A stretch of 64,000 nucleotides of DNA from Archangium gephyra (GTDB lineage: Bacteria; Myxococcota; Myxococcia; Myxococcales; Myxococcaceae), in NCBI RefSeq assembly GCF_001027285.1, contig NZ_CP011509.1, forward strand, positions 174,501-238,500. Reading direction: 5' to 3'. How positions within the stretch are numbered: the stretch's first letter is position 1; the number at the start of each line of letters is the position of its first letter. Under the pieces are notes generated by a model. It was not told where the DNA came from. It saw only the letters and a program-made list of their open reading frames with translations, and ran no database searches. Below are positions 48,495 through 56,132 of this stretch, one piece after another. The position numbers were made by a program, and so were the translations under genes.

Positions 48495-48881
48495 CTACCG
48501 CGTCCCCACGGCCGCGTGGCCGTCGTGGTTGGTGTGGTCCTGGTTGGGACCATTGCCGCCGCGCAGCCCATCCTGCCCGTAGGACTGGAGGAAGGGCCGC
48601 TGGCCGTCGCTGGCGTAGGCGTAGGGGTGGCCCCAGGGGTCGGTGGGCTCGGCGGGGAGGTACTTGGGCACGAGGAAGGACAGGTCGCCCTCCTCGGGGA
48701 TGGAGCCGCGTTCGGCGCGGTAGACCTCGAGCGCCGCGAGGATGCGGGCGAAGTCGGCGTGGACCTGGGCGGCGCCCGGGTCGTGCTTGCCGCGCAGGCC
48801 GAGCCACACGGTGATGCCGATGGCCACGAAGGCGATCGGCAGGAAGATGACCATCAGGTGGGGGCGTCGGCGCGGCGTCAC
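48495..48881 (-). CDS. GspG-like pseudopilin domain protein
   Basis: 128 aa from GTG 48881 (ATG 48854 possible). The N-terminal hydrophobic helix (LMVIFLPIAFVAIGITVWLGL) lacks a prepilin cleavage motif. The body follows the major T2SS pseudopilin C-terminal fold: FARILAALEVYRAERGSIPEEGDLSFLVPKYLPAEPTDPWGHPYAYASDGQ, then FLQSYGQDGLRGGNGPNQDHTNH. It lies 36 bp downstream of the radical SAM gene on the same strand, so it may belong to that operon. It may be an anchored relative that does not assemble pili. Confidence 0.8.
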   Translation of the reverse strand: MTPRRRPHLMVIFLPIAFVAIGITVWLGLRGKHDPGAAQVHADFARILAALEVYRAERGSIPEEGDLSFLVPKYLPAEPTDPWGHPYAYASDGQRPFLQSYGQDGLRGGNGPNQDHTNHDGHAAVGTR

Positions 48882-48917: not shown

Positions 48918-50201
48918 CTACGTCCCCACGGCGGCCCGGGCCTCGCTCTGCGCCTTGGGCTCGGGCAGGGGGAAGGCCTCCCAACCGGCGGGCCACTGCA
49001 CGCGCTCGTAGCTGAAGCGGTGCGTGTCATCCGCGGGCCAGGGCGCGTCCACCGGCTCCACCAGCAGATCGAAGACACCGTGGTCGAAGGGCCGGCCCGG
49101 TCCCGGCTTCCCCGGAACGATGCGCTCGCGCAGGCCGCGTCCGGCCAGCTCCAGCGAGCGGTAATGACAGAACGGGTTGTTGCCCCGCTTGTCGAAGAGC
49201 ACGTGTGCCTGCTGGCTGCACCCGCCCCGGCACGCCGCGGCGTACTTGCAGCTTCCGCAGTACCCCCACATGTGCGCCGTCCCCTTCTCGGTACCGGCGT
49301 CCACGTTGAAGGTCAGCTCGCGCGACTCCAGGATATCGGCCAGCGGCTGCTTGCGGATGTTGCCGCCCACGTACTCGGACGGCAGCGTGGGGCAGCCCTT
49401 GATGCCGCCATCGGCATGAATGCCGAGCACGGACAGGCCCGCCTTGCAGCCCGCCCACAGCTTGCCCACGCTCGCGAAGAGCAGGTCGTCGTACGGGCCG
49501 AAGTAACCGATGTCATTGGCGGGCGTCAGCGCCACGCGCGACTCATCGCGGGCCCGCAGCGCGACGCGCGCGAGCATCCGGTAGAAGTCCGGCAGCTCCG
49601 CCGGCTGCAGCAGCATCCACGCGTTGTCCCCGCCATTGCCCATGGCCGAGGTGAGCTGCACCTGCCACCCGCGGATGCCGGCGTCCCTCAGCCGCTCGTA
49701 GAGCGCGGGCAGCTCGGGGGCGGACAGGCGGTTGATCTGCGTGTTGGCGCTGAAGGGCAGGCCCACCTCGCGGAAGTGGCCCAGCGTCTGGAAGCAGAAG
49801 AAGAAGGAGCGGGGCTTGCCGCGAATGCGATCGTGCGTGGCCTCGAGGCCGTCCACCGACACGGAGACGTGGGCGATGCCCGCGTCCTTCATCTTGCGCG
49901 CCGTCTCGCGCGACAGGCCATAGCCGCCCGTCGTCATCGTGCAGCGCATGCCGGCGTCCGTGATGGCCCTGGCGATCTCCAGCCAGTCCGGACGGAGGAA
50001 GGCTTCTCCTCCCTCGATGGTGACTTCCTGGATGCCCACCTCGGCCAGCTGGCGGACCAGGTCGAGCGCCTCCTCGGGGGAGAGCTCGTCGTTGCGCGTG
50101 TCCCCCGCCCGGGAGCCGCAGTGTCCACAGGCGAGATTGCACTTCAGGGTGAGTTCCCACACGGCATACGCCGTGCGGGGTTGGACGACCGGAGGTGGCA
50201 T
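48918..50201 (-). CDS. Radical SAM/SPASM enzyme, probable peptide maturase
   Basis: 427 aa. The radical SAM cluster motif is CNLACGHC (C21, C25, C28), followed by TIEGGEAFLR, SVSVDGLEATHDRIRG and the TIM-barrel strands. The C-terminus has the SPASM pattern: C252-x12-G-x4-C270, C315-x2-C318-x5-C324-x3-C328 and C345, all seven in the expected order for two auxiliary [4Fe-4S] clusters. The stop is 36 bp from the GspG-like gene and the start is 30 bp from a 55-aa peptide gene. SPASM enzymes next to short precursors make Cys-thioether, ether or C-C crosslinks in RiPPs. Product unknown. Confidence 0.92.
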   Translation of the reverse strand: MPPPVVQPRTAYAVWELTLKCNLACGHCGSRAGDTRNDELSPEEALDLVRQLAEVGIQEVTIEGGEAFLRPDWLEIARAITDAGMRCTMTTGGYGLSRETARKMKDAGIAHVSVSVDGLEATHDRIRGKPRSFFFCFQTLGHFREVGLPFSANTQINRLSAPELPALYERLRDAGIRGWQVQLTSAMGNGGDNAWMLLQPAELPDFYRMLARVALRARDESRVALTPANDIGYFGPYDDLLFASVGKLWAGCKAGLSVLGIHADGGIKGCPTLPSEYVGGNIRKQPLADILESRELTFNVDAGTEKGTAHMWGYCGSCKYAAACRGGCSQQAHVLFDKRGNNPFCHYRSLELAGRGLRERIVPGKPGPGRPFDHGVFDLLVEPVDAPWPADDTHRFSYERVQWPAGWEAFPLPEPKAQSEARAAVGT

Positions 50202-50231
50202 GGGCGGGGGCGCGCGAACGTGAGAGGGAGA

Positions 50232-50399
50232 CTAGCTCTCCAGCGAGATCTCGATCGGGGGCGGCAGGCCGTACCGGGCGCTACCACCGCGCACGCCCTC
50301 GAGGGTGTTCTCGTCCAGCTCGACGACCTCGCGGGCCTTCTCGTTCTGGCGCTCAATCACCTTGCTACGGGGGAACTTCTTCTCGACCTTCGTCGTCAT
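50232..50399 (-). CDS. Putative RiPP precursor peptide
   Basis: A 55-aa protein from ATG 50399. The leader-like N-terminus is basic then acidic (KKFPRSKVIERQNEKAREVVELDENTLEGV) and ends in RGG at residues 37-39. The remaining 16 residues are SARYGLPPPIEISLES. There is no cysteine, so a thioether sactipeptide is excluded; the aromatic Tyr43 and the PPPIEI run are the likely crosslink or epimerisation sites. Its proximity to the SPASM enzyme (30 bp) is the main evidence. I do not recognise a named RiPP family. Confidence 0.7.
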   Translation of the reverse strand: MTTKVEKKFPRSKVIERQNEKAREVVELDENTLEGVRGGSARYGLPPPIEISLES

Positions 50400-50485
50400 G
50401 GCAGTCCCTTCCGACCGAGTAGTGGGCCTTCTAGGGTGAATGAAGGGCACACCGCCTGTCAACCCGCGAACCACGAAATCCGCGT

Positions 50486-50620
50486 CTACCAGAGAGCGCG
50501 GAAGAGGGGCACGGAGTGGGGCTTGCCCTTGAGGCGCACGGGGGGCAGCTCCTCGAAGCCGGACTCGTGGCCCGCGAGCAGCTCCACGGTGCGCTCGCCG
50601 ACGAGGAGAGTTCCCCGGGT
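50486..50620 (-). pseudogene. Duplicated 3' end of the cyclase gene
   Basis: The last 39 codons plus stop ([40 protein letters not shown], about 120 bp) repeat the 3' end of the cyclase gene at 54609-56132, with roughly ten mismatches. Upstream of it the reading frame no longer matches a cyclase. The two copies are direct repeats flanking the large kelch-like gene, suggesting a duplication or insertion scar. Confidence 0.8.
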
Positions 50621-50811
50621 GGAGGCCCTGCCAGGTGGGCCTCGCAAAACCAAGCAGTCCTGCTGCGACCCTTCGTGTGGAGCTCGGAGCGTACGGTGAA
50701 GCCGACCATGAGCATCTCCGGACAGTGAATACACTAGGCTTAGACGCGCTCATGGCTTCATGTCAGCGTCCCCTCCATCTGCAGAATGACGTATCACCAC
50801 GAGGGAAAAGC

Positions 50812-53800
50812 ATGAGCGAACTCAAGCAGCAAACAGGGTTGTGCAAGCAACCTTCCCAGGAATGCCCTGGCGCCGCTGTGCGCATGGCGCTCTCCATGAT
50901 GCTTGGGCTCTTCTGCCTCTTCAGCCTTGGCTGCGGCAATACCACCACCGAGCAACCGCGCGAGGAATTCCGCCCGTCGCGGACACTCCTGGACCGCGCC
51001 ACCTCGGTGTCCTCCACGTCCGAAGGCGAGTGGAGTCCGGCGGCAAGCATGGCCGGTGGCCGGTTCCTTCACACCGCCACGCGCCTGGCGGATGGCCGGG
51101 TCCTCGCCACGGGCGGCTACAACCGCTCCACGGAGCTTTACGACCCTGGCACCGGCACCTGGGGCCGCAGGGCGGACGCGCTCGACACGCACCGCGCGGC
51201 CACGGCCACGCTGCTACCCGATGGCCGGGTGCTCATCGCCGGCGTTGGTGACAACGGTATTTCCTCGGAGCTGTACGCGCCCACCAACGGCACCTGGACC
51301 CCGAGCGGTAGCATGGGGACGCCGCGCCTCTACCATACGGCCACGCTGCTGCCGGGCGGCCGCGTCCTGGTGACAGGGGGCGCGGACCGCGAGTACGGAG
51401 GCGCCGTGCTGTCCACGGCCGAGCTCTATGACCCAGCCACCGGCACCTGGATGCCTGCGGCCCCCATGGCCTCGGCTCGCCGCGACCACACCGCCACCCT
51501 GCTCGGCAACGGCAAGGTGCTGGTGACGGGCGGAACCAACGCCAGCGGCCTGCGCCAGGGCTCGACCGAGGTGTACGATCCAGCCACGGGCACCTGGAGC
51601 CCGGCGGGTGGTATGGCCGTGGCGCGTGTCTCCCACTCGGCCACCCTGCTCCCGGACGGTAAGGTGCTCGTCGTGGGCGGTGGCGACACCTCGTGGGAGA
51701 GCAGCACCTCCGTGGAGCTTTTCAACCCGGCCACCGGCACCTGGACCAGGGCCGCCAGCATGGCCGCGCCGCGCCGCGCCCACTCCGCGACCCTGCTGCC
51801 CTCGGGACAAGTGCTCGTAGCGGGCGGCTTCCATGAGCACAACGGCATCCTCACCTCGGCGGAGGTGTACGAACCCACCCTCGGCGCCTGGCACGCCGCG
51901 GGGCCCCTGACCACAGGCCGTTATCTTCACACCGCGACGCTCCTGACGGACGGCCGGGTTCTCGCTGCTGGCGGCGTCAGCAACGGCGACCAGGCTTCCA
52001 CGGAAGTGTACAGCCCCCCTCCTCCTTTCGAGCCGGCTGGCACCAGCCTGCTGCTTCAGGTGGTCGACAACGCGGGCCATCCCATCCCAGGGGCCGCTGT
52101 CTCCTCTCAAGGCGCTGTCTTCCCCCTCGACAGCTCGGGCCACCGGCTCTTCGAGAATCTCCCGCCCGGGCGCTTCTTCGCCCGCGTGGATGCGCTCGGC
52201 TTCACGTCCGCCACGGCGGTGGTGGAGTTGCGAGCAGGGGCTCACGTGGGAGCCCAGGTGAAGCTGCTCCCGCTGGCCAACCCCATCCCCTTCCAGGCAA
52301 ACCTAGGCGGCGACATCCAGACGGAGCAGGTTCGCGTCACCATTCCAGCGGGCGCTGTCGTGGATGCCCTGGGGCAGCGCGTCACGGGCACCGTGAATGT
52401 CACCATCGCCCCGCTGAACCCAACGAGCCAGTTGGCCGCCATGCCGGGCCCCCTGGAGGGCATCGCCGCCGCGGATGGCGAGACCGTGCAGTTGGAGAGC
52501 TTCTTCATGGCCGAGGTGAGCCTGTGGAGCAACGGTGCGCCCGTGCAGCTGGCTCCGGGCAAATCCGCTACCTTGGAGTTCCTCCTCCCGGCGGCCCTGG
52601 CCAGCCAGTTCAAGGCCGGGGACACCGTGCCCGCCTGGTGGTTTGACTTGGACGCGGGCCACTGGCGCGAGGAGGGCCGCGGCACCATCAAGCCCTCCAC
52701 CACCCAGCCAGGAAGACTGGCATGGGTCGTCACGGTGAACCACTTCACCTGGTGGAACTGCGACGCGCCCTGGACGGACAAGAGTTGTGTCAACGTCCTC
52801 GTCGTGGACTCGCGTGGTGCACCCGTCCAAGGCGCCGCAGTGAACGCCGAGGGGGTCAGCTACACGGGGGCCAGCAGCCACTCCTACACCGACGGGAGCG
52901 GCCGGGCCTGCATCGAGATAAAACGTGGCAACACGGCCAACGTCTTCGCCGGACTGCCCGGCCAGCCCGCCACGGAGCGGGTGACCGTGACGGGAACATC
53001 AGCGGCGGCTGTCTGTGGCAGAGGCCCCTGCACCGAGGTGCAGCTCATCCTACCCGACGTCATCTGCACGCCGGGAGCCTACGTGTCATGCCCGTACTCG
53101 GGGCCCGCGGGAACCGAGGGCCAGGGGCTGTGTCAGGCCAGCCGTCGGCGGTGCAATGTCACGGGGACGGAGTGGAGCGTCTGCCAGGGACAAGTGCTGC
53201 CCGTGACAGAGAACTGCCACACCCCCTTTGATGATGACTGCGATGGCGTGGTGAATGAGGACTGCTTCTGCTCCGACAAACAGGGCCAGCCCTGCTATGG
53301 CGGCCCCACCGGGACGCAGGGAGTCGGCATCTGTCATGAGGGCACCATCGGGTGCGATCTCTTCGGCACTATCATCTGTCAGGGGCAACAGCTCCCCCAG
53401 ACGGAGGCATGCTGGACACTGACGGATGATGACTGCAATGGCGTGAGCGAAGCATGCGCGGCCGGTGCATCGGGTTGGACCTCGACGGGCTCCATGGCCG
53501 CGGCTCGCTACCTCCACACGGCGACGCTGCTGCCCAACGGCAAGGTGCTCGTCGTGGGGGGATTCGGAAGCAGCGGTCCCCTTGCGACAGCGGAGGTGTA
53601 CGACCCGGCCTCGGGCACTTGGAGCACGACCGGCTCCATGGCCTCGGCTCGCTACCTCCACACGGCGACGCTGCTGCCCGACGGCAAGGTGCTCGTCTCG
53701 GGGGGAACGGGCGGTGGCGCCAGCTCCGTGACGTCAGAGGTGTACGACCCCGCCTCGGGCACCTGGAGCGCTCCCAGCTTCATGACGTCGCCTCGCTTCA

Positions 53801-54477
53801 GCCACACGGCGACGCTGCTGCCCAACGGCAAGGTGCTCCTCTCCGGGGGATTCGGCGCCGGCATCAACGAGACGGCGGAGGTGTACGACCCCACCTTGGG
53901 CACCTGGAGCGCTACCGGCTCCATGGCCTCGCCTCGCGCCGCCCATACAGCGACGCTGCTGCCCAACGGCAAGGTGCTCGTCTCAGGGGGCCAAAGCAGT
54001 AGCGGCTACCTCGCGACAGCGGAGGTGTACGACCCCGCCTCGGGCACCTGGAGCGCTACCGGCGTCATGACCTCGCCTCGCATCCAGCACAAGGCGACGC
54101 TGCTGCCTAGCGGCAAGGTGCTCGTCTCGGGAGGAGAGGACAACGACTATCTCGCGTTGGCAGAGGTGTACGACCCAGCCTCGGGCACCTGGAGCGCTAC
54201 CAACTCCATGGCCATGCCTCGCTACGGCCACACGGCGACCCTGCTGCCCAACGGCAAGGTGCTCGTCTCGGGGGGATGGAGCAGTAGCGGCATCACCCTC
54301 ATGACAGCGGAGGTGTACGACCCGGCCTCGGGCACCTGGAGCGCTATCGACACCATGGCCTCGCGTCGCGGCTTCCACACGGCGACACTGCTGCCCAACA
54401 ACAAGGTGCTCATCTCGGGGGGATTAATCTATGGCTTCTTCCTCTTTATCTCGGAGGCGGAGCTGTACACACCCTGA
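50812..54477 (+). CDS. Large lipoprotein with kelch-like repeats and a Cys-rich MopE-like region
   Basis: 1221 aa from ATG 50812 (GAGGGAAAAGC upstream). The signal region [16 protein letters not shown] ends with a lipobox-type Cys (C41). Residues 73-403 hold about seven kelch-like repeats of the pattern [21 protein letters not shown]. Residues 407-477 resemble a carboxypeptidase regulatory-like domain ([20 protein letters not shown]), then a beta domain follows. Residues 751-884 are Cys-rich with the [12 protein letters not shown] and [11 protein letters not shown] motifs of MopE-like putative metal-binding proteins. Residues 887-1221 hold about seven more repeats ending SGG. The repeats are highly similar, especially the C-terminal set. 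Surface adhesin or sensor is inferred. Confidence 0.85.
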
Positions 54478-54608: not shown

Positions 54609-56132
54609 CTACCACAGAGCGCGGAAGAGGGGCACGGGGTGGGGCTTGCCCTTGAGGCGCACGGGGGGCAGTTCCTCGAAGCCCGACTCGTGCCCGGCCA
54701 GCAGCTCCACGGTGCGCTCGCCGACGAGAATTTCTCCCGGACCGGCCAGGGCGCACAGCCGCGCGGCCACGTTCACCGAGTCGCCGATGCAGGTGTACTC
54801 GGTGCGCATGGCGCCGCCGATGTTGCCGGCCACGGCCATGCCCGAGTTGATGCCGATGCCCAGCTCGAGCGTGAGGGGGCGGCCCTGGCGGGTGGTGGCC
54901 CACTCGGCCTCGGCGCGCTGGCGCAGCTCGACCATGAAGGCCATCATCATCTTCGCGGACTGGAGGGCGCGCAGCGCGTCGTCCTCGCGGAACACGGGCG
55001 CGCCGAAGACGGCCATGAGCCCATCCCCGAGGAACTTGTCCAGCGTCCCGCCGCAGGTGAGCACCGCGTCGGACAGCCCGCCCAGCACTTGATTCAACAC
55101 ACCGACGGTCTGCTCGGGAGGCAGACTGTCCGCGAGCCCGGTGAAGTTGCGGATGTCGGCGAAGAGGATGGTGACCTCGCGCTTCTCGCCGGTGAGCACC
55201 ACCGAGTCGGGGCTCTTGAGGATCTCCTCGACGACGGCGTCGGAGGTGTAGCGGGCGAAGAGCTTGCGCATCCGCTCCGTCTCGCCGGTGCGGCGCATGA
55301 CGCTCTCGATGCGCGCGGCGAGCTCGTCCATGGAGGCGGACTTGTTGACGTAGTCATCCGCGCCCGCGCGCAGGCCCTTCACGCGCTCGGTGTCGTTGTC
55401 GTTGGCGGTGAGGATGATGACGGGCATGGCCCGGCTGGGGCCTTCCTTGAGGCGGCGGCACAGCTCCATGCCGTCGATGCCGGGCATGTCCAGGTCGCTC
55501 AGGACGATGGCCGGCTGCACCTTGCCCACCTGCTCGAGGGCCTCGTACGGATCCTGGAAGCAGATGACCTCGTAGCCGAGCGACACGAGCCCGTCCTGCA
55601 CGAAGGCGCAGGCCAGGGGGCTGTCGTCGACGACCATGACGCGGTGGTGGCCGCCCTCCTGGGGCAGGGCGCGGGCGGGAGTCTCCTGGCGGCCGGAGAC
55701 GCGGCCCTGGAGGCCGAGCCCCTCGTAGAGCTGTTTGTAGGTGCAGTACCCGTGCTCGACGACGATTTCGCCCAGCTTGCGGCCGGTGCGGCGCTGGAGG
55801 GCGAGGGCCTCGTCGAGCTGCGCGACGGTGAGGTACTTGAGGCCCACGAGCAGCTCGCCCAGGGGGGGCTGCGCGGGGGTGAAGCCCTGGGGGGCGTTGT
55901 GCAGGCCGAGCGCCTCGCCCAGCGCGTCTTGAATCTGCTCGCGGGTGACGTAGCCCAGGGAGATGAGGGCCTCGCCGAGCCGCTGGCCGTTGAGCGACTG
56001 GAGGGCGAGTGCCTCTTCGATCTGATTGGGCGTGACGATGCCGAGCTTGAGCAGGAGCTCGCCGAAGAGAGGGCTGTCAGCGCGAACCGCGGAGCGGTTG
56101 CTGCCATCGGCACGGGTCAAACGGGCATCCAC
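54609..56132 (-). CDS. MshEN (c-di-GMP-binding-like)-receiver-class III adenylate/guanylate cyclase
   Basis: 507 aa; GTG 56132 chosen but the start is uncertain. Residues 21-78 and 90-142 are two MshEN-like repeats ([85 protein letters not shown]), the motif that binds c-di-GMP in MshE-type ATPases. Residues 164-280 are a receiver domain with VVDDS, phosphoacceptor D213 (LSDLDMPG) and Lys264. Residues 315-507 are a class III cyclase with metal Asps D326 (ILFADIRNF) and D370 (LDKFLGDG) and the [11 protein letters not shown] block. K366 suggests ATP specificity. The 3' end is duplicated at 50486-50620. Confidence 0.9.

Follow-up and report, generated by a model that had tools for sequence, protein, structure and literature searches.

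An Archangium gephyra gene pair joining a PlpX-like radical SAM/SPASM enzyme to a 55-residue X-Y-G peptide is apparently a spliceotide-type locus

The window analysed here is a stretch of 64,000 nucleotides from the genome of the soil myxobacterium Archangium gephyra, a single contig of 12489432 bases. Within it, the gene for a 55-residue peptide lies 5' of the gene for a radical SAM/SPASM enzyme, both on the minus strand and 30 nt apart (Table 1). A first-pass annotation made from the sequence alone had placed the two ORFs there, had read them as the precursor and maturase of a ribosomally made peptide (RiPP), and had counted all seven SPASM cysteines in the enzyme; the ORF read-out, the family assignment of the enzyme and the conservation of the precursor beside related enzymes (see below) bear this out. 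The pair is genuine. A second full pair, 82% identical and with the core S-A-D-Y-G-L-P-P-P, is present in the same genome, as is a third enzyme copy, a fragment of ~50 residues (L043 1501-1644; G000:C1:2396439-2396588).

Table 1. Coordinates of the gene pair and of its features within the window.
Feature	Position	Strand	Remarks
Precursor peptide CDS, 55 aa	50232..50399	-	ATG at 50399, stop ends at 50232
Precursor division: leader 1-39, core 40-55 SARYGLPPPIEISLES			Boundary inferred from GG
Shine-Dalgarno-like GGAAGGGA, purine-rich, 5' of precursor ATG	50405..50412	-	Sequence read-out; putative function
Leader residues 9-14, FPRSKV ([F/L]PRxx[W/V/I] motif)	50358..50375	-	Common to fused leaders; with W, also to putative cyanobacterial PlpY
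Leader end, Arg37-Gly38-Gly39	50283..50291	-	GG invariant in 12/12 precursors; likely protease site
Arg42-Tyr43-Gly44, X-Y-G splice motif	50268..50276	-	Tyramine excision predicted at Tyr43
Radical SAM/SPASM enzyme, 427 aa, PlpX-like splicease	48918..50201	-	ATG at 50201, stop ends at 48918
CxxxCxxC radical SAM cluster motif, Cys21/25/28	50118..50141	-	Enzyme
SPASM region, residues 252-345; seven Cys: 252, 270, 315, 318, 324, 328, 345	49167..49448	-	

Among 18950 NCBIfam models, the best match of the window enzyme is TIGR04103 (nif11-class peptide radical SAM maturase 3, an equivalog model), with 612.9 bits; TIGR03913 comes next with 345.4 bits. We take TIGR04103 to be the family of the PlpX "splicease", presumably the same as IPR026482, the class given for PlpX. 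The score stays under the curated cut-off of 725, as do all matches in 195 Myxococcota genomes, and the Nif11-type precursor leader that the family name implies is absent from the window precursor. With TIGR04103 so far in front, the idea of a new kind of enzyme was rejected: what the first-pass annotation had called an uncharacterised enzyme has as its best family one that is linked to the tyramine-excising PlpX, which acts on Xaa-Tyr-Gly. Assignment to TIGR03913, the radical SAM/SPASM maturases associated with GDL-motif peptides, was rejected as well; the match is long and falls short of that family's cut-off of 591.75, 268 bits behind TIGR04103. The nearest named relative is the enzyme of Archangium violaceum Cb vi76 (94% identity). 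In a tree that is a quick one with long branches, the window enzyme falls within a 12-row clade whose partners are short peptides (SH-aLRT 99), and one unstarred set (SH-aLRT 94) joins it with the cyanobacterial rows, 24 in all, which represent enzymes from loci arranged like plp (see below). An AlphaFold2 model built from a 20-row alignment (mean pLDDT 87.0, pTM 0.88) has SkfB, PqqE and SuiB (streptide) as its best matches among solved structures (Foldseek, TM-score by query length 0.54-0.62). The overall fold is the same, at 17-23% identity.

The precursor itself matched no NCBIfam model up to E 10 and, in Pfam, just ComC, below its cut-off. It contains no Cys, as the first-pass annotation had pointed out, and thioether chemistry of the sactipeptide or ranthipeptide kind is thereby ruled out. 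A profile built from 12 precursors, the window's included, was run on 145 genomes of the order Myxococcales and picked out 13 strong copies (E < 1e-25), 12 of them directly 5' of an enzyme of the window enzyme's family. Invariant in the 12 are K4, E6, K7, K8, P10, R11, R17, E20, R23, L33, G38, G39, Y43, P46 and P47. The core thus keeps Tyr43, Pro46 and Pro47 throughout; position 44 is Gly in ten and Ala in two, and Tyr is preceded by Arg, Lys, Asp or Ile. In the window core, S-A-R-Y-G-L-P-P-P, R-Y-G corresponds to the X-Tyr-Gly at which PlpX substrates are spliced. Tyr43 had been singled out as a likely site of modification, in agreement with its invariance within X-Y-G, where the reaction is predicted; the PPPIEI run, proposed alongside it, does not hold as a unit, its Pro46 and Pro47 being invariant and its IEI not. 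The annotation had also proposed to see whether each homologous enzyme has a peptide with RGG and a PPPIE core, and had named enzymes lacking the peptide, or a peptide without conservation, as grounds against the pairing. A peptide with GG and Tyr is indeed found at 12/12 loci of the clade, and its consensus core is X-Y-(G, rarely A)-(L/I)-P-P rather than PPPIE. The 13th precursor copy (L179 2013-2162 in G045:C402; SAEYGLPPP, with Glu before Tyr) has no enzyme match nearby (tblastn, E <= 0.01). An enzyme-like stretch, GIQEVTIGGG, can be seen by eye just downstream of it, and this copy has probably decayed.

Eight neighbouring ORFs between 43.0 and 56.4 kb were scanned against Pfam. They match SCO1, universal stress protein, T2SS-G, Kelch and response regulator/cyclase families, or nothing; there is no transporter among them, as previously noted, and no peptidase, dedicated C39 peptidase/transporter or second radical SAM enzyme. 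Removal of the leader must come from elsewhere. Peptidase_C39 has eight matches elsewhere in the A. gephyra genome, five of them in open frames over 700 aa; C39 transporters have been described as serving some spliceotide systems, though not universally (PMC10885120). The flanks of seven other loci of the 12-member clade differ among themselves, and the nearest relative alone shares the cyclase and T2SS-G genes, so that the unit seems to consist of just two genes. A 120-nt direct repeat (94%; 50486-50605 and 54609-54728), derived from the 3' end of the cyclase gene, brackets the Kelch-repeat gene (50635-54477, plus strand). The latter looks like an insertion, since in the nearest relative the cyclase gene directly adjoins the precursor.

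The association of such enzymes with X-Y-G sequences extends across the order. At E <= 1e-80, 39 of the 145 genomes hold 59 enzymes in all, and every one of these loci was examined. ORFs with YG-x(1,2)-P occur within 700 nt upstream in 43/58 loci (one locus lies too near a contig end and was left out), as opposed to 14/262 windows taken farther away and 204/1160 shuffled windows. By rules drawn up after the loci had been seen, 56/59 enzymes have an X-Y-G substrate (X-Y-A in two cases) adjoining them or, once, fused to them. These substrates comprise 19 with a PR-motif leader (including the two X-Y-A), 31 zinc-ribbon proteins, four helical two-site proteins, one repeat protein and one motif at an enzyme C-terminus. 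They lack obvious similarity beyond X-Y-G, which argues that X-Y-G is what the enzymes act on. Three enzymes, among them G137:C12 and G135:C172, have no X-Y-G substrate by the rules; the remaining one, G088:C384, shows AAYGVPPC by eye, a sequence missed by the cysteine rule. Like the window enzyme, those paired with zinc-ribbon proteins match TIGR04103 (420-474 bits) and adjoin X-Y-G proteins, but they form a separate clade with other substrates, and the [F/L]PRxx[W/V/I] motif of the window leader is found in none of their 38 X-Y-G ORFs. The 31 enzymes in question (L072 and most of L098-L130) have upstream a protein with an N-terminal zinc-ribbon-like Cys pattern, which Pfam zinc ribbons match below cut-off only, followed by a hydrophobic stretch and often by LMACYG. 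The Cys before Tyr-Gly in this last motif resembles, we presume, a lipobox Cys, and it is possible that these proteins are keto-modified lipoproteins.

The search for TIGR04103 enzymes also covered 386 genomes from the phylum that includes G195, the Prochloraceae cyanobacterium holding locus L003. Twenty-three genomes have a match at E <= 1e-150, 21 of them over the cut-off. The 25 loci from this search and L138 make up the 26 cyanobacterial loci compared. An X-Y-G ORF lies upstream in 20/26, and a small [L/F]PRxxW ORF lies 3' of the enzyme in 21/26; the latter is, from its position and size, the putative PlpY. No enzyme was called by rule at L159, L166 and L167, the first two of which still yielded a PlpY-like ORF in a profile search. 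Six of the X-Y-G precursors were scanned, and all have leaders over the curated cut-offs (four Nif11, two NHLP). The cyanobacterial TIGR04103 loci thus show the layout published for the plp cluster of Pleurocapsa, in which PlpX, of SPASM subclass IPR026482, is said to occur with a small helper, PlpY, and with leaders of the Nif11 or nitrile-hydratase-like type (PMC11002830). Compared with PlpA/PlpX/PlpY of Pleurocapsa sp. PCC 7319, for which published descriptions were the source, the window has the radical SAM/SPASM enzyme, the X-Y-G motif and the Y-G-L-P context in common. It differs in its single 55-residue peptide with one X-Y-G, its short GG leader with an FPR motif in place of a Nif11/NHLP leader, its enzyme score under the TIGR04103 cut-off, and in having no second radical SAM gene among the eight ORFs and no stand-alone PlpY within about 3 kb (PlpY profile search).

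In the published accounts, splicing is described for PlpX together with PlpY (PMC11002830, PMC10373908). PlpXY is reported to cut C8H9NO from the Tyr of X-Y-G and to join the Tyr carbonyl to the X carbonyl, with a stated loss of -135.0757 Da (PMC10533398); the mass calculated here for C8H9NO is 135.0684. Tags tried with PlpXY include GPIRPLYGLPI (PMC10533398), and comparison of the window core R-Y-G-L-P with this tag (PIRP-L-Y-G-L-P-I) shows a match at Y-G-L-P.

We consider the window pair very likely to be a minimal spliceotide locus, with known cyanobacterial chemistry and what is apparently a variant precursor architecture. A PlpX-like splicease would bind the precursor leader (about residues 6-34, with the FPR motif and the residues after it at the centre) and would take a tyramine equivalent (C8H9NO) out of Tyr43, whose leftover carbonyl would be linked to that of Arg42. 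The predicted product is an internal alpha-keto-beta-homoarginine amide ahead of Gly44-Leu-Pro-Pro-Pro. A GG-specific protease encoded elsewhere would then free the core after Gly39; with this cut, splicing at R42-Y43-G44 is predicted to shift the core [M+H]+ from 1728.917 to 1593.848 (-135.07 Da). The product would likely serve to inhibit serine/cysteine proteases, its Arg, replaced in relatives by Lys, Asp, Glu or Ile, taking a P1-like place. Protease inhibition has been ascribed to beta-residues (PMC10373908, citing Scott et al. 2022).

Other fates of the peptide have to be weighed against splicing. The first-pass annotation had offered C-C, ether or D-amino acid chemistry; given TIGR04103 as the best family and the X-Y-G motif, backbone splicing is to be expected instead. 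An enzyme that recognises Y-G and then subjects Tyr43 or the run of prolines to some other radical reaction (epimerisation, or cross-linking through C-C or ether bonds) appears improbable. The closest folds are those of generic SPASM enzymes and leave the chemistry unfixed, and the TIGR04103 score lies under an equivalog cut-off, both of which would suit such a reaction. However, the family that leads by so wide a margin has cyanobacterial members paired with X-Y-G cores, and with nothing but Tyr and two Pro kept in all 12 cores, and Gly in ten, no other conserved residue is available as a cross-link partner. Copies of the system do decay, as the enzyme-less precursor of G045:C402 and the enzyme fragment in the A. 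gephyra genome illustrate, but it is very improbable that the window locus is itself an inactive remnant: both genes are open, all ten motif cysteines are present, the pair has the same neighbours in the nearest relative, and over 45 codons the window and that relative differ by 0.25 synonymous and 0.06 non-synonymous changes per site. Least probable of all is that the true substrate is another neighbour, for instance the T2SS-G-like protein encoded at 48495-48881 (minus strand), which contains QSYGQDG. Its gene still adjoins the enzyme gene in the nearest relative but was not seen beside the six other clade enzymes whose flanks were examined, whereas the precursor adjoins all 12.

How a splicease would act here with no PlpY beside it is a separate matter, on which the leader may bear. 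Among 7941 ORFs around the myxobacterial and other loci, a PlpY profile search found stand-alone PlpY twice, both times in cyanobacteria. The next matches lie inside X-Y-G substrates (G084, E 0.0066; L133, E 0.018). A profile comparison of seven such fused leaders with 12 PlpY pieces scored 31.5, a value that none of 300 column shuffles attained (highest 17.3); fusion of a PlpY-like module to repeat substrates is, from these alignments, well supported. The G084 substrate, 5' of the enzyme at L091, combines a leader resembling PlpY with ten repeats of P-(L/M)-Y-G that recall cyanobacterial cores. Window-type leaders scored 15.3 against the fused leaders (0/300 shuffles as good, highest 13.7) and a weak 11.6 directly against PlpY (8/300 as good); hhalign on whole alignments gave them probabilities of 3.7% with the fused-leader set and 0.4% with PlpY. 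An iterative PlpY profile reached a leader of the window's clade, not the window's own, and at E 2.1 only, so that the window leader is linked to PlpY through the motif and through the indirect comparison via fused leaders. On these grounds, the presence of a PlpY-like module fused within the window peptide is plausible. The motif, [F/L]PRxx[W/V/I], occurs in 20/20 substrates of Myxococcota enzymes scoring at least 597 bits (8/20 with W strictly), a count that is descriptive because the motif and the seven fused leaders were picked after the substrates had been seen; in the whole set, those substrates included, it occurs in 76/7664 ORFs.

Our proposal is that PlpY arose as a leader that came off its substrate, or else that the leader is a PlpY that became fused to one. 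PlpY is too small to be counted as an RRE in a 2025 paper (PMC12710340). Put together, and held tentatively at slightly less than even confidence, the reading would be that PlpY, which is not an RRE, is a detached substrate leader; that a single handle, [F/L]PRxxW plus a helix, is read by the splicease either in trans or fused; that the 39-residue leader of the window peptide is a worn-down PlpY; and that the two window genes alone suffice for splicing. A variant of the preferred splicing reading, whose probability overlaps with it, has the splicease depend on a PlpY encoded elsewhere in the genome, with an FPR leader unrelated to PlpY. We consider this unlikely, though a serious contender: in published work splicing was obtained with PlpX and PlpY together, the direct comparison of the window leader with PlpY is weak, and five loci of the joint enzyme set (L007, L140, L167, L168 and L170) have neither a PlpY-like ORF nor the leader motif, FPRPPI in the L168 repeats looking like chance. 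It is countered by the finding of stand-alone PlpY, among the 7941 ORFs around the loci, in two cyanobacterial cases only, by the motif in every substrate of the higher-scoring Myxococcota enzymes and by the alignment of the fused leaders with PlpY, unequalled by shuffling. The idea of a leader acting in cis or in trans makes the role of PlpY directly testable.

A previously unassigned myxobacterial gene pair thereby acquires a specific prediction that can be tested by mass. Compared with the cyanobacterial systems, one built on a 55-residue, single-site substrate that lacks a separate helper would be simpler, and it could serve to install reactive ketoamides in proteins; the keto group predicted here is reactive, and protease blocking has been reported for groups of its kind. 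Variation of the residue before Tyr (Arg, Lys, Asp, Glu, Ile) would be compatible with tuned inhibitors of proteases, and the P1-like Arg of the window peptide and the Asp of the second copy would suit different proteases. Among the literature matches listed, no title refers to a myxobacterial spliceotide or to a PlpY fusion; the primary papers of 2018 (Science) and 2022 (Chem) lay outside that check, and the latter may report either. Neither spliceotide nor radical SAM occurs as a term in the main text of a 2025 survey covering Myxococcota gene clusters, and according to a 2022 review the isolation of a natural spliceotide had yet to be achieved (PMC8868522).

Some variants among the related loci deserve mention. 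In the Cystobacter group, L092 and L093 (G073:C11 and G074:C1:11220293) are near-identical paralogous pairs with X-Y-A (SARYALPPPPPTPPP) and an open enzyme frame. Such natural paralogues offer a test of how strictly Gly is needed and, should the detached-leader reading be true, these two would show whether X-Y-A replaces X-Y-G in nature. At L132 (G139:C187), the enzyme ORF ends in EYGVMPLP...CDYGIPPPPECC, substrate motif and enzyme being seemingly fused in one protein. Finally, a conserved ORF of ~96-100 aa with LSNYGYP is found 3' of the enzyme at L046, L076 and L091; it may encode a second substrate or a helper.
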